Assembly (NCBI GenBank): GCA_030041005.1
Contig: JASHOR010000148.1
Location: forward strand, 1-64,000
Source: Xanthobacteraceae bacterium
Lineage (GTDB): Bacteria > Pseudomonadota > Alphaproteobacteria > Rhizobiales > Xanthobacteraceae
Direction of reading: 5' to 3'
DNA length: 64,000 bases
The notes below the pieces were generated by a model. That model saw nothing but the letters and a program-made list of their open reading frames with translations. It was not told the origin of the DNA and searched no databases. Below, piece by piece: positions 13,058 through 44,773 of the stretch. Each line of letters starts with the position of its first letter. Within the stretch, counting starts at the first letter, position 1. The position numbers and the translations under genes were made by a program.

Positions 13058-13102
13058 GGGCTCGGGCGCTCCCTCGCTTGCGAAAACACCGAACGTGTAA
13101 GG

Positions 13103-13116
13103 TACTAAGATTAGTA
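13103..13116. promoter_or_regulatory. Operator-like palindrome upstream of npdG/F420 operon
   Basis: TACTAAGATTAGTA is a perfect 6-bp inverted repeat with a 2-nt spacer, 45 bp upstream of the npdG GTG. Related copies occur at 14489-14502, 30587-30600 and 35353-35366. The length and dyad suit a dimeric GntR/HutC protein, and a gntR gene lies 1.4 kb away. Confidence 0.7.
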
Positions 13117-13146
13117 AGACAATACCTCCCGACGCCGCCAGAGGCC

Positions 13147-14421
13147 TCAGGCGCCCTCGATCCCGCACCAGTCATAAATGCTCAGCGCCATCACCTTGAT
13201 GGCCGTCTGATAGTCGTCGATGCTCACGTATTCGTCGTCGGAGTGCATCACCGCCGTGGACCCGGGCCCGAAGATCACCGTGGGCGTGTGGCCGTAGAGG
13301 TTCAGGAATCGGGTGTCCGCCGCGCCCTGCCGGCCGCTGACCTCGGCTTCCCGCCCGGTGACTTCCCGATAGTTCTTGCAGACCAGTTGAACGATCGCAT
13401 GCTCGCGCGGGATTTCGGAAGCCTGGGCGTCATAGCCGACGAAGCGGACCTTGGGCGGATGGTCCTTCATCCACGGATCCGCGGCGGCGACGCGGGCGAT
13501 ATGATCGACGAGACTCCGCTTGACGCCCTCGTGGTCTTCCCCGGGCACCGTGGCCATGCTGCCTTTCAACAGGCAGGTGGCGGGAAACGAGCTCGGGAAA
13601 TTTCCGGAATGAAACGCCCCGATCATGCACGGCAGCGCATCGATCGGCTTGGGATAGAGCGGGTGCTTGACCGTCGCCACCCTTTTCTGCTCCAGCGCCT
13701 CCACGGCCTTGGTGATCTTGTAACCGAGTTCGATGCCGCTCACGCCCTGATAGCGCCGCTGGATACCGGCGGGCTTGCCCTGGATTTCGATCTCGAACCA
13801 GATGCGCCCGATGCACGCCGGCTGCACCGCAAGCCCGCTGGTTTCGCCGGAAATGCCGGCATCGGCCGAGTAGCCGCGGATCACCGTGTCCAAGGTACCG
13901 TGGCCACTGACCTCCTCGTCGATGACGATATCTATGTAGACATCGCCCTTCGGCCGCAGGCCGGCGGCAATCAAATTCTCGATCGCCATGATGTGGCTGG
14001 CTACGCCGCTCTTCATGTCGCACGACCCGCGTCCGTAAAGCCGGCCATCCTTGATCGACGCCGACCACGGATTGTCGCTCCAGCCTTCGCCGTTGCCGAC
14101 CGGAATGACGTCGGTATGGCCATTGAACAGCAACGAGCGGCCGCCGCCAGTGCCTTTCCAGGTGGCGACGATGTTCGGGCGTCCTTCGTAACCGCGATCG
14201 ACCGGAATGTAGCCGGGATGCTTCTTGAGCTCTTCCCAATCGGACTCCCACATGTCAACCTTGAGACCCATCTTTCCGAGATACTCGGCGAGGAACCTCT
14301 GAATATTGCCCTCATCACCGGTCACGCTCGGGATCGACACCATCCGCTGCAGAAACCCGATCGACTTGTCGCGGCTGGCATCTATCTGCTGCAAAACCTT
14401 CTGCCGACTGTCGCTATTCAT
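13147..14421 (-). CDS. M20-family metallopeptidase/amidohydrolase (ArgE/DapE/CPG2-like)
   Basis: A 424-residue M20 hydrolase. Metal ligands and catalytic residues are visible: SLLFNGHTDVIPVG (His ligand and Asp), LYGRGSCDMKSG (bridging Asp), DIVIDEEVSGHGT (catalytic Glu and ligand Glu), and GSTAVMHSDDEYVSI near the C-terminus (His ligand). The middle ~110 residues form the dimerisation lid. Family members cleave N-acyl amino acids, peptides or carbamoyl amides. Starts at ATG 14421 or ATG 14436 fit equally. It lies between gntR and npdG with an operator-like palindrome 68 bp upstream, so its substrate is probably part of the same pathway. No signal peptide, so cytoplasmic. Confidence 0.87.
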   Translation of the reverse strand: MNSDSRQKVLQQIDASRDKSIGFLQRMVSIPSVTGDEGNIQRFLAEYLGKMGLKVDMWESDWEELKKHPGYIPVDRGYEGRPNIVATWKGTGGGRSLLFNGHTDVIPVGNGEGWSDNPWSASIKDGRLYGRGSCDMKSGVASHIMAIENLIAAGLRPKGDVYIDIVIDEEVSGHGTLDTVIRGYSADAGISGETSGLAVQPACIGRIWFEIEIQGKPAGIQRRYQGVSGIELGYKITKAVEALEQKRVATVKHPLYPKPIDALPCMIGAFHSGNFPSSFPATCLLKGSMATVPGEDHEGVKRSLVDHIARVAAADPWMKDHPPKVRFVGYDAQASEIPREHAIVQLVCKNYREVTGREAEVSGRQGAADTRFLNLYGHTPTVIFGPGSTAVMHSDDEYVSIDDYQTAIKVMALSIYDWCGIEGA

Positions 14422-14488
14422 AGTTCCATCCGTCATTGCTCGATCGAGCGACCGCGCGAACGGCACCTCGGTGCCCGTCGTCTCAAAA

Positions 14489-14502
14489 TTCTAAACTTAG
14501 GA
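14489..14502. promoter_or_regulatory. Operator-like palindrome upstream of the M20 peptidase
   Basis: TTCTAAACTTAGGA fits the same dyad as the npdG site (n-x-CTAA-nn-TTAG-x-n, one mismatch between the outer bases). It lies in the short gap between the gntR stop (14506) and the peptidase start. Confidence 0.55.
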
Positions 14503-14505
14503 CCA

Positions 14506-15351
14506 TTACGATTGCAATCGGGAACGCCGGCGAGAACGGCCGGCGCCCTTGGCCGACCCCGCGCCGACGCCGTCGCCCCCCGATGCTCGCTTTCGCCGCA
14601 ACAGATCGATGTGCAGTTGAATCGCGTCGCTGCGGTAGGTGATATCGGCGACATATATGGCGATGTTGTCGCGATCGATCAAAACGCAGCGGCATTCGGC
14701 CGTCGGCGCCCCGAGCGCTATTCCCAGGAGATCGGAACTGGTCGGATCGGCACTGCCGATGACGACCGTCTGATGCGCGTGCTGGATTTCGATGTTCTTC
14801 CAGCCGGCGACCACCGGCAGCGCGGGGTGCTCGCGGAACACATTGGGCGCGCGGTTGTAGATGGTGCTGGCGAGATGCAGGTTGACGATGCCGTAAGGCA
14901 TTGCATCCTTATACTGGACGCTGCGCAAGAACACATACTTGTCCGCCGGGTCGCCTTCACCGTCGCGCAGCGTCGGGAAGCGCGGGGCATTGTGCACCTT
15001 GATGGGTTTGCGAACGTTGTTCTTGATCGTCTCGATCAGCGCATCCCAGGTCGTTGCCAACTTGAACCAGTGACGATCGGCGGCCTTGTCCGCCGCAAAG
15101 GTGCCCCGCCCCTGTTGCGCGCGCAGCAACCCCTCTTCGCGCAGAATATCCACCGCCTGACGAACGGTGACGCGGGCGACCTGAAATTCACGCTCCAACT
15201 CCACCAGAGTCGGGATTTTCGTTCCCGGGCGCCACTGCTCTGTTTCGATGCGCCGGCGCATGACCGAAGCGACCTGGATGTACAGCGGAACGCGGCTGCG
15301 GTCATAGGCTCGGGAAAGTTCGGACATGGTCGCGTTTGCCAATAATTTCAT
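14506..15351 (-). CDS. GntR-family (HutC-type) transcriptional regulator
   Basis: A 281-residue regulator. Residues ~20-90 form the winged helix: VPLYIQVASVMRRRIE, GTKIPTLVELEREFQVARVT then VRQAVDILREEGLLRAQQG and RGTF, the GntR DNA-binding signature. Residues ~105-255 form a UTRA-type ligand domain typical of the HutC branch (YVFLRSVQ, VAGWKNIEIQHAHQTV, ALGAPTAECRCVLIDR). The tail is strongly basic (RSRRRSRLQS). ATG 15351 is used; ATG 15327 is possible. It is divergent from the UbiD gene and adjacent to the peptidase and F420 operon. I propose it binds the TACTAA-nn-TTAGTA palindromes found upstream of four transcription units in this window. Confidence 0.9.
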   Translation of the reverse strand: MKLLANATMSELSRAYDRSRVPLYIQVASVMRRRIETEQWRPGTKIPTLVELEREFQVARVTVRQAVDILREEGLLRAQQGRGTFAADKAADRHWFKLATTWDALIETIKNNVRKPIKVHNAPRFPTLRDGEGDPADKYVFLRSVQYKDAMPYGIVNLHLASTIYNRAPNVFREHPALPVVAGWKNIEIQHAHQTVVIGSADPTSSDLLGIALGAPTAECRCVLIDRDNIAIYVADITYRSDAIQLHIDLLRRKRASGGDGVGAGSAKGAGRSRRRSRLQS

Positions 15352-15523
15352 CAACGCCGATCGAAAACCCGGCAGGTCCTATTAGCACCTGGACATGCGG
15401 CGGACCAGCAGTCCGCGGCGCCCGATCGTGAAAAACGCCGGCCTTGCCGCCATGCCGCTCAAGGTCGCAGTTGCCAAGCGCACGATTCCAAACATACTAT
15501 CTTCTAGCCTATGGGCTCAATGG
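15352..15523. promoter_or_regulatory. Divergent gntR/ubiD promoter region
   Basis: This 172-bp intergenic stretch must carry both promoters. It holds one clean half-site TTAGCA (15382-15387), identical to the right half of the 30587 palindrome. A poor full-site candidate, TACTATCTTCTAGCC (15494-15508), has a 3-nt spacer and lies just upstream of the ubiD start. Autoregulation is plausible but not shown. Confidence 0.35.
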
Positions 15524-16939
15524 ATGTCGAGCATGCAGGAAAAGGCAGATAACCTGGACCGGCAAAGTCTGCGCGGCTTTCTGCGGATGGTCGAAAGCGA
15601 CTATCCCGACGAGCTGTTGAGAATCCGGCAACCCGTCGATTCACGCTTCGACATGACGGCGATCGTCTTCGAGCTGGAGCGTTCGGGCAAAAGCCCCGTG
15701 GTGCTGTTTGAACGGGTCGATGGCTACGCCATGCCCGTTGTCACCAACATTGCCGCGAACCGGCGACTGCTGGCGGCCTGTCTCGGCGTCGGCCAGCCCG
15801 ACCTGCCGGCCGCCTTCCGCGCGCGGTGCCAGAAATATATTCCATGCGAACTGGTGCCGCAGGCGGCCTGGAACGATGTCGTGCTCGAAGGCGACGACGT
15901 CGACCTCACGAAGCTGCCGATCATGCTGCAATTCACCGTCGATGGCGCTCCCTATATCACCGCCGGCCAGATTTCAGCGCGCGATCCGGTGAGCGGCGTC
16001 GACACGACGGGATTTCACCGGCTGATGCTCAAGGGCAAGAATCGCCTCGGCGTGTCGCTGCATTCGCGTCGCCGCATGTACGAATTTCATCGCCGCGCCG
16101 AAGAACGGGGCCAGTCGCTGCCCGCGGTCATCACGATCGGCACCCATCCGCTGCATTACATGGGGTCGATGGTCTACGCCTATCCGCCGAATACGAGGAA
16201 ATTCGAGATCATCGGCGGCCTTTTCGGGGAGCCCTATCGGTTGGCGCAGTGTGGCATCGACGGTCTCGAGGTCCCGGCCGGCGCCGAAATCGTGATCGAA
16301 GGCGAAATCCTTGCCGGGGTGAAGGAGCCTGAAGGGCCGTTCAGTGAATTTACCGGTTACGCGTCGTATCGCAGCACGCAGAACGTGTTCGTCGCCAAGC
16401 GCATCCGCATGCGCGGCGACGCCATCTACCAATCCGTTACCTCCGGCATGTCGAAGGACCATATCCTGGTATCCTGCGTCACCCGCGAGGGCGAAATCTT
16501 CAATGCGCTGCAGCGCAATTTGCCCAACGTCCGTGCCGTGCACGTGCCGCATACGACCTGCGGCGGCTTCATGGCTTTTATTTCGATGAAGAAAACGGCG
16601 GACGGCGAGCCGCAGATGGCCATCATGGCGACGCTGGGCACGGAACTCTATACCAAATATGTCATTGTCGTTGACGAGGATGTCGACATATTCGACATGA
16701 ACGACGTCATGTGGGCGATCGCCACCCGCGTACGAGCGGAGAAGGACATATTCTTCATCCCCGGCGCAAAGTCGGCCATTCTTGATCCCACATCCGACCC
16801 GAAGACGTTCACCGTGACCAAGATGGGCATCGATGCGACCCGTCCGACGGGTATCGATTTTGCCGAGCGTCTGGTTATCACCGACAAGCAGCGCGCGCGG
16901 GCGCGCGAAATTCTCGCGTCGGCGGGAATGGCTTTGTAG
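15524..16939 (+). CDS. UbiD-family decarboxylase (prenylated-FMN dependent)
   Basis: A 471-residue UbiD-family protein. These enzymes reversibly decarboxylate aromatic or alpha,beta-unsaturated acids with prenylated FMN and a divalent metal plus K+. Diagnostic parts are LRGFLRMVESDYPDELLRI, YITAGQISARDPVSGV, HYMGSMVYAYPP and EGEILAGVKEPEGPFSEFTG, which carries the conserved catalytic/metal glutamates. The open frame extends 129 nt further 5', but the conserved N-terminus begins at the ATG 15524 or 15533. No UbiX prenyltransferase is in the window, so the cofactor must come from elsewhere. Divergent from gntR. It supports an aromatic acid as an intermediate. Confidence 0.88.
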   Translation: MSSMQEKADNLDRQSLRGFLRMVESDYPDELLRIRQPVDSRFDMTAIVFELERSGKSPVVLFERVDGYAMPVVTNIAANRRLLAACLGVGQPDLPAAFRARCQKYIPCELVPQAAWNDVVLEGDDVDLTKLPIMLQFTVDGAPYITAGQISARDPVSGVDTTGFHRLMLKGKNRLGVSLHSRRRMYEFHRRAEERGQSLPAVITIGTHPLHYMGSMVYAYPPNTRKFEIIGGLFGEPYRLAQCGIDGLEVPAGAEIVIEGEILAGVKEPEGPFSEFTGYASYRSTQNVFVAKRIRMRGDAIYQSVTSGMSKDHILVSCVTREGEIFNALQRNLPNVRAVHVPHTTCGGFMAFISMKKTADGEPQMAIMATLGTELYTKYVIVVDEDVDIFDMNDVMWAIATRVRAEKDIFFIPGAKSAILDPTSDPKTFTVTKMGIDATRPTGIDFAERLVITDKQRARAREILASAGMAL

Positions 16940-16962
16940 CGCCGAGGGGCCAGCCCCTACAG

Positions 16963-17916
16963 CTATCCGGGTGTCGACTGATGCCCCGCTGCGTTCCACA
17001 AGTCCCGGAATTGCACCGCAACGACATCTTCATAGGACGGGCTGCAATCGAGGAGGCCCACGTCCGATGCAAAACCGTTGAGCGAGGCGATTGCGCGCTG
17101 CGACAGCGACGCATCGTAAAACGGCAGATCGCGCGCGACCAAGCTACCAATAAGCTCGGCCTCCAGCGCTGGGAACAACTTGCGTCCGACGACGGACGCG
17201 AGTGACAGGTCGTTCCGCAAGGCGGTGTGGCTCGCAACGACGGCGCGCACGACCGCAGCAACGGTCTCGGCCGAATTCCGGATCATCCGGTCCGTCGTGG
17301 CGACGGCCGGGAAGGTGTAGGAGAACGCTTGCTTCGGGCCGTCACCCCGGCGCACATCGAGAACGATCGTTCCGACGCCGCGGCGCACCGCAATTTCCGC
17401 GCCCATGCCGTTTGCCCAAAAACCGTCGATCGCGCCGCTCTCCAGCGCTTCGGCCGCAGTCACACCGGTGTTGACCTTCAGCTCAAGCCCTCCCGGTATC
17501 GGCGCAATGGCGATGCCCTCGCGCGCGGGGTCAAGCCCGGCCTCCAACAGCAGCCGCCGCAGCCCGAGTTCGACCCATGGCGCGGCGCCGATGCGGCGAC
17601 CGCGTACGCATTGCAGATCGCCGCGCCTGGCGCCGAGATCGGAACGCATCACCAGGAACCAGTACATGCCCTGCGCCTGGGCGCAGAGCAGCTTGACGCC
17701 GCGCCAGCGCGGAAACACCGCGAGCGCGGCGTGCGCCTCGGCGGCAACAAAGTCGACCTCGCCATCATCGAGCGCCCGATAGGCTTTGTCGGCCGGCGAC
17801 ATCAAAACGAGCGTCGCGTCCACGCCCTGCCCGCGCAGAAGGCCCAGTTCGCAGGCCGCAAGGACCGGAAAGTACGAATTCGAAATAAGATCCGGCACGG
17901 CGATCCTGATCGACAT
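16963..17916 (-). CDS. NMT1/THI5-like substrate-binding protein without a signal peptide
   Basis: A 317-residue protein of the ABC nitrate/sulfonate/pyrimidine receptor fold: IRIAVPDLISNSYFPVLAACELGL, ALDDGEVDFVAAEAHAALAVF, GRRIGAAPWVELGLRRLLLEAG and ALESGAIDGFWANGMGAEIAV. Unlike the upstream receptor it starts directly at the first beta strand (MSIRIAVPDL), so it appears cytoplasmic. It may be a sensor, a metabolite-binding accessory or an enzyme of the THI5-like group rather than an export-dependent receptor. Distal gene of the ABC block; it converges with ubiD. Confidence 0.7.
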   Translation of the reverse strand: MSIRIAVPDLISNSYFPVLAACELGLLRGQGVDATLVLMSPADKAYRALDDGEVDFVAAEAHAALAVFPRWRGVKLLCAQAQGMYWFLVMRSDLGARRGDLQCVRGRRIGAAPWVELGLRRLLLEAGLDPAREGIAIAPIPGGLELKVNTGVTAAEALESGAIDGFWANGMGAEIAVRRGVGTIVLDVRRGDGPKQAFSYTFPAVATTDRMIRNSAETVAAVVRAVVASHTALRNDLSLASVVGRKLFPALEAELIGSLVARDLPFYDASLSQRAIASLNGFASDVGLLDCSPSYEDVVAVQFRDLWNAAGHQSTPG

Positions 17917-18077
17917 CGCTCAGCTTCCGTTTAGCGGAACCTTTGATGCCGGCACGCCGCCGACGCGGGACCCGGGTGTCATTTTGAGCACCGGCGGCCG
18001 TTGTGCTTGCCGCTGCTGCCGGGGCCCTCGTTTCTCAACCGCTGAAGTCCCTCCGGCGGGGGGCACGCCAAAGCAGG

Positions 18078-19169
18078 CTATCCGACCGTCGATGGCAGCT
18101 CTTTCTTCACGCGCGCTTCCACCGTGGTCCATTGCTGCGGAGTGAGCGTCACCGATCCGACAAATTGGTCGGTATAGAGCTGGCTGGGCGGCGGCACATC
18201 CTTGATCCCCATATAGGTGATGACGGATTGCCTGGTGACGCTCGCAAGTGCCGGATCGATGTAGCCGAGCCCGTGCTGTTTGAACGCGTCGACGAAGCCG
18301 AGCGAGGTGCCGACCTCCTGCCCGTAGAACAAGACCTCGCGCGTGGCCGGGGCGCCGCCTTGAAATTCCTTCAAACTGTCGATGTGGATATCGATGGCCT
18401 TTTCCGGATTCAGGTAGACATACTTGAGCCCTTCCAGCAGGCCGGCGACGAAGTCCTTGCATACCTGCGGCCGCTGCGCGACCGTCTCGCGCTTGCAAGC
18501 GGCCACGATGCTGCACGATTTCACTCCGTAATCCGCATAAAACATGGCGTTGATGGGTATATGATTTGCCCAATAGGTCGGCGCTATGCTGCCGAAGAAA
18601 TTGCCGACGACCTTGATCTGCTTGGCGGCGGCGGCGCGCATCAGGCTCGCCGCATCCATGCTGACGATGTTCACTTTGCTGGCGTCGATGCCAGTCGCTT
18701 TTACGAACGCCGGCCACAGCGCATACTCGCCGCCGCCGACTTCGAAGCCGATCGACTGGCCTTCAAGCTGCTTGGGATGGGTGATGTTCAGTTCCTTGAG
18801 CGAAAAAATGCCGATGGGCGAGCGCGGCCAGATCCCCGCGATAGCGACGAGGTCGAGACCGCGACCGACGCAACCCGCCTGGACGGCCATGTCCAGCAGC
18901 CCGAAATCGTATTGGCCCTGGTCAACCGGAACGCAGACCTTGGTCGATCCGAAGCCGCGGTCGATGGTGACGTCGAGACCGCGCTTTTGCCAGTAACCCA
19001 GCTTCTTGGCGACAAACGTGAAGCTGTAGGTGCCAAGCGGCAACCACGGCAGCGTGAGTTTGATCGGAGTAGTAGCGGCGCGAGCGATTGCCGGCGCCGA
19101 GATTCCGATTGCGCTGCTGGTTCCAGCGATGCCGGCCAGCTTGAGAAAAGATCGCCGATGCAGTGTCAT
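18078..19169 (-). CDS. ABC transporter periplasmic substrate-binding protein (NMT1/SsuA type), Tat signal
   Basis: A 363-residue receptor with a twin-arginine leader, HRRSFLKLAG, and a cleavage region ending AIARA. The mature part shows IKLTLPWLPLGTYSFTFVAKK, GYWQKRGLDVTIDRGFGS, QYDFGLLDMAVQAGCV and KQLEGQSIGFEVGGGEYALW, typical of receptors for nitrate, sulfonates, hydroxymethylpyrimidine and aromatic acids. Tat export suggests a prefolded receptor. It sits 66 bp after the DUF1989 gene and belongs with the permease and ATPase upstream. A start ATG at 19169 with GGGAGA upstream is clear. Confidence 0.88.
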   Translation of the reverse strand: MTLHRRSFLKLAGIAGTSSAIGISAPAIARAATTPIKLTLPWLPLGTYSFTFVAKKLGYWQKRGLDVTIDRGFGSTKVCVPVDQGQYDFGLLDMAVQAGCVGRGLDLVAIAGIWPRSPIGIFSLKELNITHPKQLEGQSIGFEVGGGEYALWPAFVKATGIDASKVNIVSMDAASLMRAAAAKQIKVVGNFFGSIAPTYWANHIPINAMFYADYGVKSCSIVAACKRETVAQRPQVCKDFVAGLLEGLKYVYLNPEKAIDIHIDSLKEFQGGAPATREVLFYGQEVGTSLGFVDAFKQHGLGYIDPALASVTRQSVITYMGIKDVPPPSQLYTDQFVGSVTLTPQQWTTVEARVKKELPSTVG

Positions 19170-19235
19170 GTCGCGTTTCTCCCTGATGAGGTGCGGTCGA
19201 CCGCAAGCTTGCGAATTACAGTCCGATGCCGGCTA

Positions 19236-19856
19236 TCAGTACGCACTGTACTCGTAAATGACCGCCTTCAACGGTTTGAGGCGGAAGGCATTGCACGCGT
19301 TGTAGATCTGCGGACAGTTGGAAAACGCCGCGATCACGTCCATCTCGGCGCGGAAGTCGATATAGTCGCCGGCCTTGCTCTTGGGCGCCTGGATCGACCA
19401 GTTGCCGTCGGCGCCGACCGGGCAGTTCATGAACACGTTCATATTGAACGGCACATCCTTCCAGGCGACGCCCCACGGCTTGAGCGCTGCGGCCAGATTG
19501 TCGCGGCAGTTTCTGCTGTTCTTCACGCCGTAGCGCTTCTCGTTGGTGAAGCTCGAGCAGGCTCCGGCCAGCATGTCATGAACGCCGCACGTGTCGGAGA
19601 CGATCGTCATCATCGCACGGGCTTCGTCGGAGTAAAGTACATAGCCGACACGCGGGAACACCTGCTTGTTGAGGTTGATGGTATTCATAACCGACAGTTT
19701 CTCGGCGAGATTGGCGGCGCTCACGGTCACCAGATCGGCCACCTGCTGGCCTTCCAGATCGACGATGCGCAATACTTGGTTCTTGTGAATTTCGGCGGCG
19801 AAGTGCCCCGCCGGCTCGACGGTTTCCTCGCGTAAGACTTTCATCTGTTCCATCAT
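19236..19856 (-). CDS. DUF1989 (urea carboxylase-associated family) protein
   Basis: A 206-residue DUF1989 protein: GHFAAEIHKNQVLRIVDLEG, DLVTVSAANLAEKLSVMNT, GVHDMLAGACSS, NCRDNLAAALKPWG and FNMNVFMNCPVGADGNW, with conserved His and Cys residues suggestive of a metal site. Family members are found next to urea carboxylase and guanidine/urea transport genes; their biochemistry is poorly defined. Here it lies between an NMT1-type permease and its receptor, which argues for a nitrogen compound as transported substrate. The ATG at 19856 has GGAG 5 nt upstream; a second ATG follows at 19853. Confidence 0.82.
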   Translation of the reverse strand: MMEQMKVLREETVEPAGHFAAEIHKNQVLRIVDLEGQQVADLVTVSAANLAEKLSVMNTINLNKQVFPRVGYVLYSDEARAMMTIVSDTCGVHDMLAGACSSFTNEKRYGVKNSRNCRDNLAAALKPWGVAWKDVPFNMNVFMNCPVGADGNWSIQAPKSKAGDYIDFRAEMDVIAAFSNCPQIYNACNAFRLKPLKAVIYEYSAY

Positions 19857-20006
19857 TCGCTCCGGTTTACGCTCACCGTGTCCGGCAGTGCGGTACGAGC
19901 AGCAAGCGCGCGTCAAAGAATTATCAACCCGCCACACGACCTTCGTAAAGCGCAAAGTGAAACTTTGCGCGTAGAGAGAACGTCACGCACGCGACTCGGC
20001 CGCGCA

Positions 20007-21561: not shown

Positions 21562-21562
21562 C

Positions 21563-23917: not shown

Positions 23918-23980
23918 CCTGTCAGATTCCAAGGTTCAGCCCTGAGTCAACAAGCGGTTTGCGGTATCAGACTAACGTGT

Positions 23981-26055: not shown

Positions 26056-26093
26056 TGCGAATGCTCCAAAACATCGGCCAAAAATTGCGCCAT

Positions 26094-26498
26094 CTACTTG
26101 CTCCGTATCGTCTGCATCCGACGGCGAAGAGTTGCGCCCCGCACGTCCGGTTCATTGGTATCAGTCAGCAGGTCACGCAGGACGCGCTGTTCTGGCACCG
26201 GGTCCAATTGGGTGAGACCGGGTTTCAGCTTGGCAATGCAGGCATATTCGACGACACCGTCGACCGTGATCGCGCATTCCTTGCAGACATTGGCGTTGAA
26301 GCAACTGAATTGAAATGCCAAGTCGGGCTGCTGCCCGAAGCGAATTCGCACCAGCCCGTCGAGCACCGAGTCGCCGTCCTCGAAATTAACGTCATATTCC
26401 TCATAACGGCCTTGCTCGCCCGCGCATCCTCGCCAAATGCGCAGCCGCGCGACTTTCAACGGCGCGGCGGCGACGGCATCACCGTAAGGGCCGGTCAT
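26094..26498 (-). CDS. Small 2Fe-2S protein resembling the N-terminal half of SdhB/FrdB
   Basis: A 134-residue ferredoxin-fold protein. The cysteines CFNANVCKEC and a fourth Cys twelve residues later (VEYAC) match the plant-type cluster loop of succinate dehydrogenase/fumarate reductase iron-sulfur subunits. The C-terminal 4Fe-4S/3Fe-4S half of SdhB is absent, and there is no membrane anchor gene. The ATG at 26498 has GGAGG 6 nt upstream and overlaps the flavoprotein gene by 20 bp. It probably transfers electrons to or from the FrdA-like subunit. Confidence 0.75.
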   Translation of the reverse strand: MTGPYGDAVAAAPLKVARLRIWRGCAGEQGRYEEYDVNFEDGDSVLDGLVRIRFGQQPDLAFQFSCFNANVCKECAITVDGVVEYACIAKLKPGLTQLDPVPEQRVLRDLLTDTNEPDVRGATLRRRMQTIRSK

Positions 26499-28188: not shown

Positions 28189-28206
28189 GCGTAACGTTCC
28201 CAGAGT

Positions 28207-30531
28207 TCAATCGGTCCGACGCTGCGCCGCCAATGCCTGCACAATGCGACGCGGCGTTATGGGAATTTCCGTTATTTCGACCTGCAGGGGCCGCAGCGCG
28301 TCATTGACGGCGTTGGCGATCGCAGCGGCTGGCCCGATGGCGCCGCCCTCGCCTACGCCTTTGATGCCGAATTCGGTGTAAGGCGACGGCGTTTCCATGT
28401 GCAGTACGCGGATGTTGGGGACTTCGGCGGTGCCCGGCAACAGGTAGTCGGCCAGTGTCGACGCCAGCGGTTGACCCTGCTTGTCGAACGTCATCTGTTC
28501 GAACAATGCGCTGCCAATGCCTTGGGCGGTACCGCCGAAGATCTGCCCATCGACGATCATCGGGTTGACCAGCGTGCCGGCATCCTCGGCGACGACGTAA
28601 TCGAGAATCTCCACTGCGCCGACCTCGGGATCGACCGCAACGACCGCGGCGTGCGCCGCCCCGGTGTGGATGCCGGTCAGGCGCAATGGCGAGAAGCCGT
28701 TGGTGACTTCCAAGCCGCGCGGGTCGATGTCGCTCGGCAGTTCATTGGGCGACAGATAATAGGCTTGCGCGATGGCGCGCAGCGACACGCTGCCGTTCGG
28801 ACCGAAGACACAACTGTCGCGCAGGCTCACCGAAGCCTTTTCGGTTTGCAGCAGCGCCGCGCCGATCCTGGCAACCCGGTCGGCCAATTCCTTGCAGGCC
28901 TGCGATGTCGCGCCTCCGGCCCAGATCATGCCGCGCGAGCCCCAGGCACCGCTGGAATAGGGCGAGAGTTCCGTATCGCCGAGCTTGACCTGGATATCCT
29001 CGATGTCGAGTCCGAGAATTTCACTGCCGATTTGCGCCAGCGTGGTCTCAAGCCCCTGGCCAATGCTCTGGATGCCGGCCCGGATCTCAAGGCGGCCGTC
29101 GGGAGTAAGCCGCGCGAATGTTTGCTCGTAAAGCACGCGGCGTTTGCCATCGGCTGTCATGCCATGGCCGGTCTGCTCCGAGAACATCGACATGCCAAGC
29201 CCGATGAGCCGGCCGTCGCCCTCGCCGCGCCGCTGTCGCGCTCGCACCGCGTCCACGTCGATTGCCTCGACCGCCATGCGCAAAAGTTGCGGATAGTCGC
29301 CGCTGTCGAAATGTTTGTCGGTGACATTGTCGTACGGCATCTGTTCCGGTCGAACGAGGTTGACGTCGCGGACCTCATGCGGCTCTCGCCCGATTTCCCG
29401 CGCAATGGCATCGACCACGAGTTCCATCGCATAGCAGCAACCCGGCCGGGCGACGCCGCGATAGGGCAATTGCGGCGCCTTGTTGGTGGCGACCGCCGCG
29501 GTAGTGCAACGATAGACCGGGATGTCATATGGCCCGGGCAGGATGGCGCTGACCTGCGAAGCCTCGATCGCCGCGGTGAACGGATAAGACGAATAGGCGC
29601 CGGTATCGACCGCCGCCTTGGCATCGAACGCGAGAATTTTTCCCGTTCGATCCGCGTAAGCCGTGATGTCGTAATAATGCTCGCGACAGTTCGCGTTGGC
29701 GACGAGCATTTCGCGGCGGTCTTCAAGCCACCGCACCGGGTAATCAGCGCGCATCGCCAGCCAGCACAAACAGACCTCTTCGCCGGCCAGGACGGCCTTG
29801 TAGCCGAAACCGCCGCCGACATCCGGCGATACCACGCGAATCTTCAATTCCGGGATTTGCAGCACTTGCGCCAGCCCGCTGCGCACCACGTGCGGAAACT
29901 GGGTGGCGCCGTGCAGGATCAACTGGTCGAGCCGCTTATCCCACTGCGCGATGAAGCCGCGGCATTCGATTGGCGACATCACCTGACGCGAGGTCCGCAA
30001 CCGGCGGGTGACCTTCACCGGCGCCGTCTTGGCGACCGACTCCACATCGCCATCGTATGCGACATTGACGTACACATTGCCTTTGACGGTGTCGTGCACG
30101 AGCGGGGCGCCCGGCTTCTGCGCCTCGATCATGTCGGTCACGGCCGGCAATTCGTCGAATTGCAAAGCGACCTGGGCCGCGATGTCTTCGGCCTCAGCGC
30201 GCGTGTCGGCGACGCACATGGCAATCAACTCGCCGACCTGACGGATCTTGTCCACGACCAAGGGAGGCTGTTCGGAAATCTGGAATCCCGGCAGCGGCGA
30301 AACCGCCTTCAGCGGTAGAACGCCCGCAAGATCACGGGCGGTGAAAACCGCGGAACGCAAGCGTTCGGGAACGAGTACGGCGTTCAGCCGCGCGTGCGCC
30401 ACCGGGCTGCGCACAAAGGCGACCTCGCGCATCCTCGGGAACCGCAGGTCGCCGATGTACTGGCCTTCGCCGTAGAGAAAGCGGCTGTCCTCCTTCCGCC
30501 GGGCGCGCGCACCAACACCGTTCCTCGCCAA
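28207..30531 (-). CDS. Molybdenum hydroxylase large subunit 2 (xanthine dehydrogenase/CoxL family)
   Basis: A 774-residue paralogue of the protein at 21563-23917. The two are collinear with many identical blocks (PDVGGGFGYK, VRWLEDRRE, FDSGD, TPSPYTEFGIKG, GEGGA). Mo-cofactor motifs include LPYRGVARPGCCYAMEL and GAWGSRGMIWAGGATSQ; the form I CO dehydrogenase loop is absent. I place the start at TTG 30531 because AGAGGAGG ends 6 nt upstream and MARNGVGAR then aligns with MPSYGIGAS of the paralogue. It is the first gene of the ~13-kb catabolic/ABC run and has an operator-like palindrome 56 bp upstream. Confidence 0.9.
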   Translation of the reverse strand: MARNGVGARARRKEDSRFLYGEGQYIGDLRFPRMREVAFVRSPVAHARLNAVLVPERLRSAVFTARDLAGVLPLKAVSPLPGFQISEQPPLVVDKIRQVGELIAMCVADTRAEAEDIAAQVALQFDELPAVTDMIEAQKPGAPLVHDTVKGNVYVNVAYDGDVESVAKTAPVKVTRRLRTSRQVMSPIECRGFIAQWDKRLDQLILHGATQFPHVVRSGLAQVLQIPELKIRVVSPDVGGGFGYKAVLAGEEVCLCWLAMRADYPVRWLEDRREMLVANANCREHYYDITAYADRTGKILAFDAKAAVDTGAYSSYPFTAAIEASQVSAILPGPYDIPVYRCTTAAVATNKAPQLPYRGVARPGCCYAMELVVDAIAREIGREPHEVRDVNLVRPEQMPYDNVTDKHFDSGDYPQLLRMAVEAIDVDAVRARQRRGEGDGRLIGLGMSMFSEQTGHGMTADGKRRVLYEQTFARLTPDGRLEIRAGIQSIGQGLETTLAQIGSEILGLDIEDIQVKLGDTELSPYSSGAWGSRGMIWAGGATSQACKELADRVARIGAALLQTEKASVSLRDSCVFGPNGSVSLRAIAQAYYLSPNELPSDIDPRGLEVTNGFSPLRLTGIHTGAAHAAVVAVDPEVGAVEILDYVVAEDAGTLVNPMIVDGQIFGGTAQGIGSALFEQMTFDKQGQPLASTLADYLLPGTAEVPNIRVLHMETPSPYTEFGIKGVGEGGAIGPAAAIANAVNDALRPLQVEITEIPITPRRIVQALAAQRRTD

Positions 30532-30537
30532 GACCGG

Positions 30538-30545
30538 CCTCCTCT
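30538..30545 (-). promoter_or_regulatory. Strong ribosome binding site that fixes a TTG start
   Basis: AGAGGAGG on the - strand, 6 nt before TTG 30531. It decides the start of the second molybdenum hydroxylase large subunit; the open frame continues through it to a TTG at 30555 with no such site. Confidence 0.7.
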
Positions 30546-30586
30546 GCCGCCGCAAAAGTCGTCGCGGACCAACCGTGATATTATCG

Positions 30587-30600
30587 TACTAATATTAGCA
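30587..30600. promoter_or_regulatory. Operator-like palindrome upstream of the catabolic operon
   Basis: TACTAATATTAGCA differs from a perfect TACTAA-nn-TTAGTA dyad by one base. It lies between livF (ends 30632) and the hydroxylase start (30531), so this operon probably has its own promoter in addition to read-through from liv. Confidence 0.65.
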
Positions 30601-30631
30601 TGATTCAATCCGGCAGCGCCTCGCTCGCGAG

Positions 30632-31348
30632 CTACAGGCCGAGGTAGGCTTGACGGATCATCGGGTCTTTGGCCAGCATCTGCGTATTGCCGCGCATGCG
30701 CACGACGCCGGTTTCGATCACGAAACCGCGCCGTGCAAGTTCGAATGCAGTCATGACGTCCTGCTCGACGATGAGAATGGCAAGGCCGATCTTATTGACC
30801 TCGATCAGCGCCTCGCCGAGCCGCTCGACCATCCGCGGCGCCAAGCCCAGCGACAACTCATCAATCATGAGCAAGCGCGGGCGCGACATGATCCCGCGCG
30901 CCACCGCACACATTTGCTGCTCGCCGCCGGACAAGGTGGTCGCGTCCTGGTGCTGCCGTTCCTTGAGGATAGGGAAAATCGAGAACACGTAATCGAGATC
31001 GCGATGAATCTCGACTTTGTCGGACCGCAGGTAGGCGCCGAGAAGAAGATTGTCGCGCACGCTCATGCCGCGAAACAGTCGCCGTCCTTCCGGAACGTGC
31101 GCGATCCCGCGCGCCAGGATCTGATCGGCCGGGAGCCCCGCAAGCTCCACCCCGTCAAACAACAATTTCCCGGAGCTGACCGCCACCAGTCCCGACAGCG
31201 CTCGCAGCAGCGTGGTCTTGCCGGCGCCGTTCGAGCCTACGATACAGGCTATTTCGCCGGCTTCGATGTCGATGTCCACGCCCCACAGCACGCGCACCTC
31301 GCCGTAGCCGGCGTGAAGGCTTTCCACCTTGAGCAGCGGCTCAGGCAC
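30632..31348 (-). CDS. livF: Branched-chain amino acid-type ABC transporter ATPase LivF
   Basis: 238 residues. Walker A is GSNGAGKTT, signature LSGGEQQM, Walker B LLMIDELSLGLAP and switch IVEQD, the LivF pattern. It begins LLKVESLHAGYGEVRVLWGV. The GTG at 31348 overlaps the livG stop by 8 bp. With LivG it powers import through LivHM of a hydrophobic amino acid, urea/amide or aromatic acid; Liv-type systems near aromatic catabolic genes often carry aromatic acids. Confidence 0.9.
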   Translation of the reverse strand: MPEPLLKVESLHAGYGEVRVLWGVDIDIEAGEIACIVGSNGAGKTTLLRALSGLVAVSSGKLLFDGVELAGLPADQILARGIAHVPEGRRLFRGMSVRDNLLLGAYLRSDKVEIHRDLDYVFSIFPILKERQHQDATTLSGGEQQMCAVARGIMSRPRLLMIDELSLGLAPRMVERLGEALIEVNKIGLAILIVEQDVMTAFELARRGFVIETGVVRMRGNTQMLAKDPMIRQAYLGL

Positions 31349-32105
31349 CGGTAGCGCCTTCCTGGTACCGGCGGGCGAATTTCTCGCCGAGATAGGCTTC
31401 GATCACCCTTCGGTCATTGACCATCGCCACCGGATCGCCCTGAGCGACAAGTTCTCCCTGGTGCAGGACCAGGACTCGCTGGGCGAGCGACAAGATCACC
31501 TTCATCAGATGCTCGATCAACAGGATCGTCACGCCGCGCTCAGAAATCTTGCGGACGAGGGCAAGTGCTCGGTCGATTTCGGTGGAATTGAGGCCCGCGT
31601 TGACCTCGTCCAGCATCAAGAGCTTTGGCTGCATCGCCAGGCTCTTGGCGAGCTCAAGACGCTTTCGGCCGGCAATCGTAAGGCTGCCCGCCGGCTTGTC
31701 GGCGAGCGCCGCCAGCTCGGTAAATTCCAGTTGCTCGCGTGCGATGTCGGCTGCCCGTCTCACGTTCACCTCGCGGTCGGCGCCGCCGAACAACGCGCCG
31801 GCCATGACATTTTCCAGCACCGTCATGCGCGGGAACGGCTGCACGACTTGAAACGTGCGCGCGATACCTCTGCGTGCAGCCTGATATGGCCGCTGCGCGG
31901 TGACATTGGCGCCGCAGAAAATCACTTGACCGGCGGTGGCGCCGGTCACGCCGGTCATGACGTTGACGAGAGTCGTTTTTCCCGCGCCGTTCGGACCGAT
32001 CAGCCCGACGATTTCACCCTGATCGATCGTGAAGCTCACATCGCGCAGCGCGCGAATGCCGCCAAAGCTCTTGCTGACGCCGTTGAGCTCTATGATTGCA
32101 GTCAC
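31341..32105 (-). CDS. livG: Branched-chain amino acid-type ABC transporter ATPase LivG
   Basis: 254 residues from a GTG start at 32105 that overlaps the livM stop (GTGA). Walker A GPNGAGKTT, the LivG-specific ARTFQVVQPFPRMTVLENV, a diverged signature LTIAGRKRLELAKSL and Walker B LLMLDEVNAGLN are present. An open frame runs far upstream through livM in another phase but does not encode this protein. Electrically neutral, cytoplasmic partner of LivF. Confidence 0.9.
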   Translation of the reverse strand: MTAIIELNGVSKSFGGIRALRDVSFTIDQGEIVGLIGPNGAGKTTLVNVMTGVTGATAGQVIFCGANVTAQRPYQAARRGIARTFQVVQPFPRMTVLENVMAGALFGGADREVNVRRAADIAREQLEFTELAALADKPAGSLTIAGRKRLELAKSLAMQPKLLMLDEVNAGLNSTEIDRALALVRKISERGVTILLIEHLMKVILSLAQRVLVLHQGELVAQGDPVAMVNDRRVIEAYLGEKFARRYQEGATGA

Positions 32106-33079
32106 GGCACCGCCACGGGCCCGCCCTTGAGCCAGCGCCCAAGGGATCTGCGGAAGGATGCTCTCGGCCCTTTCCCGTCCGCAATCCCGAGCAAGCCGCC
32201 GGGCAAGAAGAAAATGATGATGACGATCACCGCGCCGAGAATGGCGCGGTTGTAGGCGAGAAAGTGCGACCAAAAGAATTCTTCGAGCAGCAGGAACGAC
32301 GCCGATCCCGCGACCGGTCCCAGCACCGTCCCTACGCCGCCGAGCATGCACATCACCGGAGTCTTGATCGTCATGATGGCATCGAACGCATCGGTCGGAT
32401 CGATGTAGCCGGTCCATGACGCGTAGGCGCCGCCGACCGTGCCGCAGAACATCGCCGACAGGACGAAAGCGACGATCTTGTATCGCGTCGTGTCGATCCC
32501 GACCATGTCGGCTGCATCTTCGTTCTGCTCGATGCAGCGCAGGCCGAAGCCGAGCCGACTGCGGTCGACCAAAATGGAAACGGCAAACGCAATCACCATG
32601 ATGCCGACCATTACCGCCAGGAAGATGCGCGCCACAAAATCCGGTCCGCCATGAAACAGCGGAACGTTCAGTCCATCGCCGCCGCCGGTCAGGCTGTCCG
32701 AGGACGAGATGACCAGACGCAGCACTTCCACCAATCCGAACGAGGCAATCGCGAAATAATGGCCACGCAGGCGAAGAATGATGAGGCCGAACAGCCCGGC
32801 GAAAATTCCGACGCCGGCCGTCGCACAGAGCCACGCCGCCGAAACCGGCAGACCCGCCCGCTGCGTCAGCGCGCCGACATAGCAGCCGAGACCGAAGAAT
32901 GCCGAGGTCGCGAATGACGGATAGCCGGCGAAGCCGCCGATAAAATTCCACGAGATCGCCAGCGTCGAGTACATGGCGATCGTGATGGCAAGATGAACGA
33001 TGTAGTTGTCGCCCCATAGCGGCGTCGACGCGAGCGCGAGTATCCAGACCGCAAAGACGGAACATCGCAGCCGCATCAT
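32102..33079 (-). CDS. livM: Branched-chain amino acid-type ABC permease LivM
   Basis: A 325-residue polytopic membrane protein with at least eight hydrophobic segments. Characteristic LivM parts are AISWNFIGGFAGYPSFATSA, LRGHYFAIASFGLVEVLRLV, RCIEQNEDAADMVGID and MLGGVGTVLGPVAGSASF. ATG 33079 overlaps livH by 4 bp; a second ATG follows at 33076. Confidence 0.92.
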   Translation of the reverse strand: MMRLRCSVFAVWILALASTPLWGDNYIVHLAITIAMYSTLAISWNFIGGFAGYPSFATSAFFGLGCYVGALTQRAGLPVSAAWLCATAGVGIFAGLFGLIILRLRGHYFAIASFGLVEVLRLVISSSDSLTGGGDGLNVPLFHGGPDFVARIFLAVMVGIMVIAFAVSILVDRSRLGFGLRCIEQNEDAADMVGIDTTRYKIVAFVLSAMFCGTVGGAYASWTGYIDPTDAFDAIMTIKTPVMCMLGGVGTVLGPVAGSASFLLLEEFFWSHFLAYNRAILGAVIVIIIFFLPGGLLGIADGKGPRASFRRSLGRWLKGGPVAVP

Positions 33080-33936
33080 TCGAATCCCTTCACTCCCGTC
33101 AACCCGGTCGGCATCGCCACGAGCAGGACAAGCATCAGCGCGAAGCCGGCCGTGAGCGCGTATTGCGGCCCCAGGAACTGGCCGGCGATGCTTTCGACCA
33201 ACCCGAGCACGAGCCCGCCGACTAGCGCGCCTTGAACACTGCCAAGGCCGCCGATGATGCAGACGATGAAGGCTTTGCCGAGAAAGGTGAAGTCGAGGTC
33301 CGTGGTCATCGGATAGACCATGGCGAACACCGCGCCGGTCGCGCCGGCCATCAGGGCGCCGATGCCGAAGGTGATCGCGTAGATATGCTCGACCCGGATG
33401 CCCATCAGCATCGCCGCCGAGCGGTCCATGCGCACGGCAACGATGGCGCGTCCGATGCGCGAACGGCGGAGCACGACGTACAGGAGACCGGTCAACAGCA
33501 GCGCGAGCACCATTCCCGCCAGCCGATCGACCGGCACAAATATGCCGCCCGCGTCGATCACGCCGAGATTGAGCGTCACCCGCACCGGCGTCGCCGTGAA
33601 GTACACAATCATGAAATTGTAGAGGATGAGATCGAGCGCGAAGGTCAACGTCATCGTCACCAGAACGGGCATGTCGACCACGCGGTTGATGAGTATGCGC
33701 TGAATTGCGTAGCCGAGCAGAAACAGAGCAAACGCGACCGCAAACAGCGCAATGAGCGGGTGAACCCCGTAGTCATGCCACGCCGTGTAGGTGAGGTAGC
33801 CGCCGAGCACGAGCAGCGAACCGTGCAGCATATTGATGACGTTAAGCACGCCCCAGACCAGCGAAAAACCGATCGCCAGGCACGCGTACAACGCCCCCAG
33901 CATGATCCCGTTGACGAGCATCTGGACGTACAGCAT
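33076..33936 (-). CDS. livH: Branched-chain amino acid-type ABC permease LivH
   Basis: A 286-residue membrane protein. Signatures are LVNGIMLGALYACLAIGFSL then VWGVLNVINMLHGSLLVLGG, and GKAFIVCIIGGLGSVQGALVGG. Preceded by GGGGGAACCGG before the ATG at 33936. It forms the channel with LivM. A 97-bp gap separates it from livK. Confidence 0.92.
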   Translation of the reverse strand: MLYVQMLVNGIMLGALYACLAIGFSLVWGVLNVINMLHGSLLVLGGYLTYTAWHDYGVHPLIALFAVAFALFLLGYAIQRILINRVVDMPVLVTMTLTFALDLILYNFMIVYFTATPVRVTLNLGVIDAGGIFVPVDRLAGMVLALLLTGLLYVVLRRSRIGRAIVAVRMDRSAAMLMGIRVEHIYAITFGIGALMAGATGAVFAMVYPMTTDLDFTFLGKAFIVCIIGGLGSVQGALVGGLVLGLVESIAGQFLGPQYALTAGFALMLVLLVAMPTGLTGVKGFE

Positions 33937-34033
33937 CCGGTTCCCCCGATCGGAGGGTTGGCGGCACAGCCGGCCAAAGTCCGCCCCGCCCCGAATGATT
34001 TCGATCCAGGGCGGCGTGCGCGATCCGGACGAC

Positions 34034-35242
34034 CTACTTCATCAGCTCAAGATCGGCGTTCTTCACGCCGTCCGGGTACAGCACCTTGATCTGCTTGTTT
34101 TGGATTTGAATGATCGGAATCGACCCCGCCTCGTTCAAGCCATTGGCGGCGTATTTGATCGGTCCGTAGAATGTCGTGATGTTGGTGCTTGCGAGCGCAT
34201 CGCGCACCTTCTGATGATCAAGCGTGCCGGCCCGCTCGATGGCGTTGGCCAGGATTACCCCCGCGGCCGCGCAAGAGGCATGGATGTAGTCCGGTTCTAC
34301 GTGCTCCTTGGCGACGAAATCCTTGACGAAGGATTGCGTTGTCGGCCACACGCCGACGCCCTGGTAATTGACCGCGGGATGCCACCACGTCCAGCTCGTA
34401 ATACCGTTGGCGAGGTTGCCGAGCGCGTCGGTGTACTCCTTGTAGGCGGGACCGGCCACCATGGTCACGACCGGGGCGGTCACACCGAGATCGCTCATCT
34501 GTTTGCGAATCAATATCAGATCCGAGGTATAGCCGGTAACATAGATCCAGTCCGGCTTGGCCGCCTTGATCGCCGACAGCCCGGACGAATGATCGATGGT
34601 GCCGACCGGATAATAGTTGTTGTAGGCCACATTCAGGCCCGCAGCCTTGGCCGCTTCGGCCACCCCGCTCGCCATCGACTTCGGGAACACGTCGTCGCGG
34701 CCGTAGATCGCGATCGACTTGATGCTCGGAGCCTTGGTCTTGATGTATTTGACGATGATGGCGTTGGAGGCGCCGTTCGCCGCTAACAACCCGAACAGAT
34801 ATTTGAAGCCCTGGTTGTAGACTGTTTCCGCCGACGACGAGCAGGCGATGAGCGGCATCTGATAACGCTCGGCGACAGAGGCGACAATCTTGGTATGGCC
34901 GGATCCGAACGGGGCAAAGAGGAAGTTCACCTTGTCGTCCGTTATCAGCTTTTCGGCGAGCTGAGCGGCACGCTGCCCATCGGACTGATAGTCATACTCA
35001 ACCAGTTTGACATTCATTTTCTTGCCGCCGACGTTGATCCCGCCCGAAGCATTGACCTTGGCAACCCACATATTCCAGACGACTTCCTGCTTTTTCGACT
35101 CCACCGCCAGCGGACCGGTGAGCGCCAGCGGCGCTCCGATCTTGATGACATCGTCGGCTTGGGCCGGCGCTCCCGAGAGCGCCATCACCGCGATGGCCGA
35201 AGCGAAAGCGAGCCATAAACAATGACGAGATACGAATTTCAT
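34034..35242 (-). CDS. Liv-type periplasmic substrate-binding protein (LivK-like)
   Basis: A 402-residue receptor with a Sec signal peptide (LWLAFASAIAVMALSGAPAQA, cleavage before DDVIKIG). The mature part has IGAPLALTGPLAVESKKQE, LVEYDYQSDGQRAAQLAEKL, FGSGHTKIVASVAERYQMPL and YATSDL-like YVTGYTSDLILIRKQM, of the Leu/Ile/Val-amide-aromatic receptor family. ATG 35242 follows a strong GGGAGGG. First gene of the liv operon with an operator-like dyad about 110 bp upstream. The ligand may be the pathway substrate rather than leucine. Confidence 0.9.
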   Translation of the reverse strand: MKFVSRHCLWLAFASAIAVMALSGAPAQADDVIKIGAPLALTGPLAVESKKQEVVWNMWVAKVNASGGINVGGKKMNVKLVEYDYQSDGQRAAQLAEKLITDDKVNFLFAPFGSGHTKIVASVAERYQMPLIACSSSAETVYNQGFKYLFGLLAANGASNAIIVKYIKTKAPSIKSIAIYGRDDVFPKSMASGVAEAAKAAGLNVAYNNYYPVGTIDHSSGLSAIKAAKPDWIYVTGYTSDLILIRKQMSDLGVTAPVVTMVAGPAYKEYTDALGNLANGITSWTWWHPAVNYQGVGVWPTTQSFVKDFVAKEHVEPDYIHASCAAAGVILANAIERAGTLDHQKVRDALASTNITTFYGPIKYAANGLNEAGSIPIIQIQNKQIKVLYPDGVKNADLELMK

Positions 35243-35352
35243 GGAACCCTCCCGACCCATTTTTTGCCGTAAGCGACAAACGTCACGCGTATCCTTGGCG
35301 GACGGGTTGCATGATTCATGCCAAGGCTTGCCGCTCAGCCGGAATTATATGT

Positions 35353-35366
35353 GATTAAGATTAGAA
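35353..35366. promoter_or_regulatory. Operator-like palindrome upstream of livK
   Basis: GATTAAGATTAGAA shares TAAGATTAG with the npdG operator and fits the dyad with mismatches in the outer bases. It lies in the 282-bp gap between livK and gcvP. The rest of that gap shows no gene. Confidence 0.5.
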
Positions 35367-44771: not shown

Positions 44772-44773
44772 CC

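Follow-up and report, generated by a model that had tools for sequence, protein, structure and literature searches.

A palindromic motif marking a putative GntR regulon that joins cofactor F420 synthesis to a catabolic and uptake gene cluster

An inverted repeat with the consensus TNNTNCTAWNNWTAGNANNA is conserved across many soil and root-nodule bacteria, where it stands at the beginning of gene groups within a cluster that makes the rare cofactor F420 and apparently uses it for the breakdown of some compound. Here we analyse this repeat in a stretch of 64,000 nucleotides from a Xanthobacteraceae bacterium (GenBank assembly GCA_030041005.1, contig JASHOR010000148.1, positions 1 to 64,000; hereafter the window), which holds four copies of it around a gene for a GntR-family regulator. 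The four palindromes are very probably operators of that regulator, encoded at 14506–15330, which would repress the four units behind them until a pathway ligand relieves the repression; one GntR-type switch probably turns on cofactor and pathway together. An earlier, sequence-only reading of the window had proposed that a GntR regulon unites F420 synthesis with genes for catabolism and uptake, and the recurrence of motif, GntR gene and cluster together in several families lends support to that proposal.

Four palindromes and an extended motif

The 14-mers described in the sequence-only reading are present, letter for letter, at 13103, 14489, 30587 and 35353. Three of them contain CTAA-NN-TTAG (CTAANNTTAG), whose exact matches in the window number three (13105, 14491, and 30589), against a mean of 0.03 and a largest count of 1 in shuffles. 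In the whole assembly (4,914,083 bases in 188 contigs, 95% complete) this pattern occurs 6 times, compared with 47 for a reversed control pattern, and 3 of the 6 fall in one 17.5-kb stretch inside the window. The Poisson chance of at least three such matches in a 17.5-kb stretch is 1.6e-6, and a crude chance figure for any three of the six sites lying this close is 7.6e-4. The fourth palindrome has one mismatch in its core. Judged on the core alone it does not rise above chance: places with at most one mismatch number 5 in the window, a count matched by 22 of 100 shuffles, and 83 genome-wide, and site 4 is therefore not acceptable from its core. It is accepted here on its score with a matrix derived from other genomes (19.3, third in the window).

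That matrix was built as follows. Of 149 family genomes, 41 encode a relative of the GntR protein at E ≤ 1e-25, and in 22 of these 41, counting the window's own genome, the match reaches E ≤ 1e-60; 20 stretches of 8 to 20 kb (356,874 bases) were taken from 11 GntR-carrying family genomes. These stretches hold five exact CTAANNTTAG places, every one between matched genes. A symmetrical 24-bp matrix trained on those five non-window sites only, then run across the window, places the four noted sites at ranks 1 to 4, with scores of 32.9, 30.7, 19.3, and 18.7. The next non-overlapping place in the window scores 4.4; the maximum over 60 random windows matched in dinucleotide composition is 11.5. The four sites are listed below with their scores from this matrix and from a 78-site motif scan, respectively.

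Operator 1 (putative), 13098–13121, core 13105–13114: upstream of the minus-strand npdG-cofE-cofD-cofC/fbiC-PALP-CoA transferase-LLM unit; 30.7 and 30.4
Operator 2 (putative), 14484–14507, core 14491–14500: between gntR and M20, upstream of the minus-strand M20 gene; 18.7 and 21.7
Operator 3 (putative), 30582–30605, core 30589–30598: upstream of the minus-strand molybdenum hydroxylase/ABC operon; 32.9 and 32.5
Operator 4 (putative), 35348–35371, core 35355–35364, one core mismatch: upstream of minus-strand livK; 19.3 and 19.4

Sites 2, 3, and 4 are intergenic, with the 24-bp site 2 just reaching the gntR stop codon at its outer end. The longest npdG open reading frame (ORF), which begins at GTG 13168, would include site 1; the family match and the relatives fit GTG 13057, 46 bp downstream of the site. 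With npdG starting at 13057, every site precedes a predicted minus-strand unit, namely npdG to LLM, M20, the molybdenum hydroxylase/ABC operon, and livKHMGF. The claim that a site stands upstream of each of four units thus holds, for site 1 only with the GTG 13057 start, and the HutC-type GntR gene said to lie among the sites is indeed found between sites 2 and 3, its product matching GntR and UTRA domains. A half-match near 15380, in the gap between gntR and ubiD, was seen by eye and not counted, this gap being absent from the top scores of the window scan.

The motif extends beyond the 14 bp first described, to the inverted repeat TNNTNCTAWNNWTAGNANNA with the core CTAW-NN-WTAG. Among 78 distinct non-window sites, selected by a matrix that included the window's sites, the strongest half-site positions are T at −10, T at −7, C at −5, T at −4, A at −3, and A or T at −2, and in most sites, by forward base frequencies, the strong bases of one repeat half recur in the other. 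The exact 20-bp consensus occurs at 1 to 5 places per genome or record in eight genomes or records, and its reversed control at none. In the window's genome it occurs exactly once, at site 3, and with at most one mismatch at 6 places that include sites 1 to 3 (control 4), counts at odds with the random genome-wide spread against which the sequence-only reading had set its proposal; site 4 has two mismatches to this consensus. An extended matrix, partly trained on window sites, scores the window's four at 32.9, 23.7, 35.3, and 24.4, and the remaining three exact CTAANNTTAG sites of the genome at −2.0, 5.2, and −8.7. Exact consensus sites lie inside the cluster at 3 of 4 places in genome G065, at both places on the plasmid of Sinorhizobium meliloti GR4, and at only 1 of 5 places within the cluster stretch read in G040. 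Beyond the stretches examined, further exact places are found in G040 (C2:346510, C8:70877, C11:365108 and 368302), G065 (C1:2284349), and G340 (C2:1681886). These outlying sites are possibly further targets or sites of a paralogue.

Recurrence with GntR and F420 genes across genomes

The conservation of the sites and the co-occurrence of GntR, sites, and cluster were, like the sites themselves, computed directly. Of 30 other genomes or records, 25 have the TNNTNCTAWNNWTAGNANNA repeat in their orthologous cluster, the 30 being those with a GntR orthologue of at least 40% identity read over at least 8 kb. Outside this set are GntRs below 40% (L083, L084, G023, G075, and others) and the genomes G053, G100, and G084, of which only 3.7 kb was read. 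Within it, R28 and GR4 both belong to S. meliloti, and other genomes of the 30 may include relatives of named ones. Family genomes with a GntR orthologue carry a site scoring at least 15 in 13 of 18 cases. Among order-level relatives, all eight genomes of seven other families (f14, f18, f29, f31, f32 with two genomes, f39, and f50) have sites, 25 of them scoring at least 15 in 309,191 bases around GntR, compared with 0.33 expected. Sites are present as well in Pseudolabrys L076, in S. meliloti R28 and GR4, and in S. fredii SMH12. With a nine-site matrix (the five outside sites plus the window's four), the 20 relative stretches yield 34 non-overlapping sites at 15 or above, 5 of them training sites, and 36 at 13 or above; random sequence yields none.

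Pooling 46 stretches, the window included, gives 85 sites of at least 15, and the only one to fall within a matched gene is site 1 of the window, covered by the over-long npdG ORF. Sixty-four could be oriented (one by hand), 16 are enclosed by a pair of outward genes, and 5 have no matched gene within 450 bp. Across loci the units preceded by sites begin with livK, molybdenum hydroxylase subunits, PALP, CoA transferase, pxpA, npdG (or pxpA-npdG), M20, and gntR, while gene order varies among the site-bearing loci. Two control GntRs, from Bradyrhizobium (36% identity, other gene context, maximum score 10.1) and Variovorax (38%, 3.4), have no sites. Nearer loci of 2 to 4 kb bear a site of at least 15 in 8 of 22 cases, the window's own included. 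Among the distant family loci of about 3.7 kb, 3 of 8 have a site of at least 17 (L039, and L044 and L045 of one genus); these loci therefore cannot serve as clean negatives, and the motif type extends beyond the F420 cluster. The distant GntRs (33–37% identity; L039, L044, L045, and also L115 and L116) have a like palindrome, scoring 17.0 to 18.1 for the first three, in the intergenic region separating gntR from an ABC permease gene, and no F420 gene was matched in the 20 kb read at L115. A broader GntR subfamily may share this operator type.

The regulator and F420 synthesis tend to occur together. All 22 sampled family genomes whose GntR match reaches E ≤ 1e-60 encode FbiC, versus 17 of 127 others (p = 4.5e-16), and the motif TACTAANNTTAG occurs in 11 of 22 versus 11 of 127 without a close GntR (p = 1.5e-5), both values being uncorrected for relatedness. 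At the looser threshold of E ≤ 1e-25 the corresponding figures are 29 of 41 versus 10 of 108 for FbiC and 13 of 41 versus 9 of 108 for TACTAANNTTAG (p = 7e-4). GntR and FbiC share one contig in 16 of the 22 genomes and are at most 17 kb apart in 15; in the order-level genomes they lie within 14 kb of each other in 8 of 8. The FbiC part of the window ORF is the sole match at E ≤ 1e-100 in its own genome. In G015 (C17:7893–10358), FbiC stands beside a TACTAANNTTAG place and no GntR was matched at E ≤ 1e-25; gntR may be missing from that assembly. At L080, L081, and L082 the cluster sits on S. meliloti and S. fredii plasmids typed as conjugative, a location consistent with movement of the cluster between strains.

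The regulator and its predicted mode of action

The regulator gene is placed as follows.

GntR/HutC-type regulator, 14506–15330, minus strand: longest ORF to 15354, likely ATG at about 15330, where most orthologues begin aligning

Its product carries an N-terminal winged helix (PF00392, 54.5 bits, cut-off 27) and a C-terminal UTRA domain (PF07702, 24.6 bits, cut-off 23.8; four relatives 26.3 to 36.5), a domain composition that assigns it to the HutC type of the GntR family. Among solved proteins, YvoA/NagR (E = 3.3e-11) and DasR (E = 1.7e-8) are its closest matches in sequence. In NagR (YvoA) of Bacillus subtilis, Arg38 and Arg48 read the guanines of GTGGTCTAGACCAC, according to the available part of the published account (PMC4333415). 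Counted along an ungapped alignment, Arg38 corresponds to Val43 of the 274-residue window protein and Arg48 to Arg53. Valine at the Arg38 position recurs in the five or six nearest relatives, L017 to L020 and L076 among them; Glu stands there in most others, Gln in L034 to L037, Gly in L028, and Asp in L039; the site-less GntRs L083 and L084 likewise have Glu, and the residue therefore does not separate site-bearing GntRs. The loss of Arg38 would fit an operator of non-NagR type.

Most HutC proteins act as effector-released repressors. We infer GntR to be the binder and, with it, repression, a ligand, co-induction, and a catabolic role, occlusion by GntR with release by ligand being the simplest reading. 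A GntR dimer would occupy the TNNTNCTAWNNWTAGNANNA repeat in the promoter of each unit and block its transcription. The ligand would be the pathway substrate or a compound made from it, and its binding to the UTRA domain would release the repressor, whereupon the four units would be transcribed together. Uptake would proceed through LivKHMGF and the NMT1-type ABC system, followed by molybdenum hydroxylase attack and M20 deacylation. From the F420 unit, CofC/FbiC, CofD, and CofE would make the cofactor, NpdG would reduce it, and the TIGR03619 LLM reductase would use it. A promoter search with weighted hexamers gave the following best promoter-like pairs at the four sites.

Operator 1: TTGTCT-17-TACACG, weak, score 6.0
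Operator 2: TTGCAA-18-TAGAAT, score 12.1
Operator 3: TTGAAT-17-GATAAT, score 12.5
Operator 4: TGGTCA-17-TATAAT, score 12.8

Over the 64 oriented sites the mean best promoter score is 9.21, versus at most 8.24 with shuffled flanks, and we regard the support from promoter geometry as modest.

A number of observations weigh against this reading. Neither gntR nor the divergent ubiD is preceded by a strong site within the window scan. The test with five outside sites is the sole one made without training on the window's sites. Five of the 18 family genomes read over at least 8 kb lack a site of at least 15 (G132, G035 at 14.9, G133, G147 at 12.6, and G079 at 10.7), and none was found within the approximately 3.7 kb read in G053, G100, and G084. 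Conversely, sites occur without the cluster in G040 and G065, and both a site of 17.1 in G142 (L110:9905) and one of 29.9 on contig 44 of G033 (L108:215) have no adjoining cluster gene matched. The 17 of 127 genomes with FbiC and no close GntR mean that F420 synthesis exists without this regulator, so that F420 may serve more than this pathway, and all seven same-genus genomes are without GntR and FbiC at the thresholds used, the system therefore being an accessory trait here. As to promoters, the sense score exceeds the antisense score in only 37 of the 64 oriented sites, and although the best promoter overlaps the operator in 61 of 64, this overlap is uninformative because 132 of 153 tested placements would count as overlap anyway.

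How these sites act, and through which protein, could be read in other ways. GntR might be an activator, or activate some units and repress others, as the variable distance between site and best promoter would allow. We consider this unlikely: NagR of the HutC family represses and is released by effectors, as far as the consulted portion of the NagR study goes (PMC4333415), and the best promoter-like pairs in the window flank or overlap every site, partly by construction. Slightly less probable still is that a different transcription factor binds the repeat and GntR is a mere neighbour. The G015 locus, with FbiC and an adjacent TACTAANNTTAG place and no GntR match, would fit such a neighbour relation, yet the sites accompany GntR through the seven other families, more distantly related GntR genes have similar sites next to them, and the annotated stretch of S. 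meliloti R28 from pyrC to gntR lists GntR as its sole regulator, in a gene table that is incomplete.

Two further alternatives concern the nature of the motif itself. The sites lie in promoter regions and their outer ATA/TAT resembles a −10 element, so that a conserved promoter or other AT-rich element could be imagined in place of an operator; the shared strong bases of the two repeat halves and the rarity of the 20-bp consensus relative to its reversed control make this very improbable. Chance resemblance, for which one can cite the unremarkable one-mismatch count of the core, deserves almost no credence, contradicted as it is by the cross-family conservation, the shuffle and genome counts, the five-site matrix, and the co-occurrence tests.

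Cluster genes and known systems

The genes of the four units and of the divergent ubiD are as follows.

npdG, NADPH:F420 reductase: 12383–13057, minus; TIGR01915, 168.4 bits, cut-off 149.8
cofE, F420-0:gamma-glutamyl ligase: 11608–12393, minus; PF01996, 257 bits
cofD: 10622–11674, minus; PF01933, 155 bits
cofC-fbiC, a single ORF of 1026 residues, guanylyltransferase plus FO synthase: 7545–10625, minus; PF01983, Radical_SAM, CofH_C
PALP-fold pyridoxal phosphate enzyme: 6052–8517, minus; PF00291; ORF over-long, conserved part about 490 residues, relatives 55–74%
CoA-transferase family subunit A: 5082–6083, minus; PF01144
CoA-transferase family subunit B: 4322–5182, minus; PF01144
LLM-class oxidoreductase, F420-dependent subfamily: 3333–4289, minus; TIGR03619, 194.8 bits, cut-off 166.9
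M20 ArgE/DapE-type deacylase: 13147–14466, minus; TIGR01910, 268.7 bits, cut-off 217.6
UbiD-family decarboxylase, divergent from gntR: 15395–16939, plus; TIGR00148, 319 bits
ABC block (ATPase 20788, permease 20007, DUF1989 protein 19236, NMT1-type binding protein 18078, NMT1-like protein 16963): 16963–21615, minus
Molybdenum hydroxylase FAD (25216), iron–sulfur (23981), and large (21563) subunits: 21563–26055, minus
SdhA/FrdA-like flavoprotein: 26479–28188, minus; PF00890, PF02910
Molybdenum hydroxylase large subunit, first gene past operator 3: 28207–30555, minus; below equalog cut-offs, family level
livK (34034), livH, livM, livG, livF, branched-chain-type uptake: 30632–35260, minus

The window holds the F420 synthesis genes fbiC, cofC, cofD, and cofE together with an F420 reductase (TIGR01915) and an F420-type LLM (TIGR03619), both above cut-off. 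A single match across both CofC and FbiC is also seen in G033 (L049) and G391 (L138), and several other relatives match in two pieces. LivK, LivH, LivM, and LivF are 56–72% identical to cluster copies in two other families (G332 and G367), and in Pseudolabrys L076 a site of 27.9 lies between two UbiD-like genes. Relatives add PxpA, PxpB, L-serine ammonia-lyase, and a second PALP to the cluster, and that of S. meliloti R28 also has PntAB and a dihydroorotase. The ORF at 17920–18717 was dropped as an other-frame overlap with the binding-protein gene. That at 16963–17916 (317 residues) had been a candidate for an unknown family and instead has a weak NMT1-like match (19.1 bits, cut-off 20.5) and many paralogues; its product has matches in 32 of 149 family genomes. 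Beyond the predicted regulon, 2576–3289 (plus strand) encodes a nitroreductase-fold protein similar to the C-terminal domain of FbiB (144.4 bits, cut-off 249.55), a relative of which lies close to cofD in G033, and GlgE-like and alpha-amylase-type glucan genes occupy 41379–52370, past the gcv genes.

Taken as a gene set, F420 synthesis, NpdG, LLM, molybdenum hydroxylases, CoA transferase, deacylase, and transporters look like a dedicated F420-dependent catabolic route, and the F420-type LLM, molybdenum hydroxylases, and deacylase, with the PxpAB and amino-acid lyases of relatives, suggest reductive breakdown of an N-heterocycle. Routes of the uric acid, pyrrole, nicotinate, and imidazole types were weighed by reasoning alone, and none accounts for all genes. 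The reductive uric acid pathway comprises XdhD, YgfK, SsnA, HyuA, YgeW, YgeY, and YgeX, with a putative F420-dependent LLM in Chloroflexota, and as portrayed in the accessible part of that paper it resembles the window in clustering a molybdenum hydroxylase, M20, PALP, and an F420-type LLM (PMC12507026). The window cluster differs in adding CoA transferase, UbiD, and F420 synthesis. SsnA, HyuA, and YgeW did not turn up among the window ORFs scanned, no dedicated search for them having been made, and generic ArgE/DapE models give the window's M20 protein a higher score than the YgeY model does, its YgeY score staying below the cut-off.

The actinobacterial picrate cluster, which has a different regulator, is said to contain the F420 reductase but not F420 biosynthesis; npdG reportedly lies in that cluster under the control of an IclR-type NpdR, for which a literature search for npdR found no such paper. 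The likeness lies in the use of F420-dependent LLM reductases in catabolism, which in picrate degradation by Rhodococcus and Nocardioides work in a catabolic route, as summarised in the part of an F420 review at hand (PMC8498797). That review, as of 2021, describes bacterial F420-dependent reductases outside Actinobacteria as being without experimental study, and it notes that two alphaproteobacteria yielded no more than traces of F420, which suggested a role specific to certain niches (PMC8498797). Literature searches, covering titles and abstract starts for the closest papers, found no printed account of a GntR–F420 regulon.

A 26-kb region of S. meliloti pSymA, tagged by k-mers for nodule competitiveness, is present only in GR4, KH35c, and KH46 among the strains studied, and the association matches in regulatory regions include COG2188 (GntR) and COG1529 (molybdenum subunit), in the available text of that study (PMC8407117). 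Its COGs (FbiC, CofD, LivF, M20, DAP ammonia-lyase, molybdenum subunit, CoA transferase A/B, LLM, and COG2188 GntR) match the pRmeGR4c cluster, and the S. meliloti cluster is apparently this competitiveness-linked region, judged by the COG list rather than by coordinates. In the part of the study available, these genes are treated as association hits, with no operator or regulon described (PMC8407117). R28 and further S. meliloti strains also carry the GntR. We tentatively suggest that in these Hyphomicrobiales F420 may be no housekeeping cofactor but one made on demand, its synthesis, reduction, and use forming one cassette with a degradation route (perhaps for a soil or root N-heterocycle) behind one GntR gate, which could underlie the nodule-competitiveness association in S. 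meliloti. If true, a substrate-inducible switch could explain the alphaproteobacterial F420 traces, the ligands that release GntR would offer a handle for substrate discovery, and the nodule-competitiveness association would gain a testable mechanism in a tractable plant symbiont.

The closest regulatory parallel is with NagR and DasR, with which the window's regulator shares the GntR winged helix, the UTRA domain, and palindromic sites before uptake and catabolic units. It differs from NagR, as represented in the portion of the published work available, in a putative operator of the form CTAW-NN-WTAG rather than the dre-type GTGGTCTAGACCAC, the dre type being a feature of a subgroup and not of the whole family (PMC4333415).

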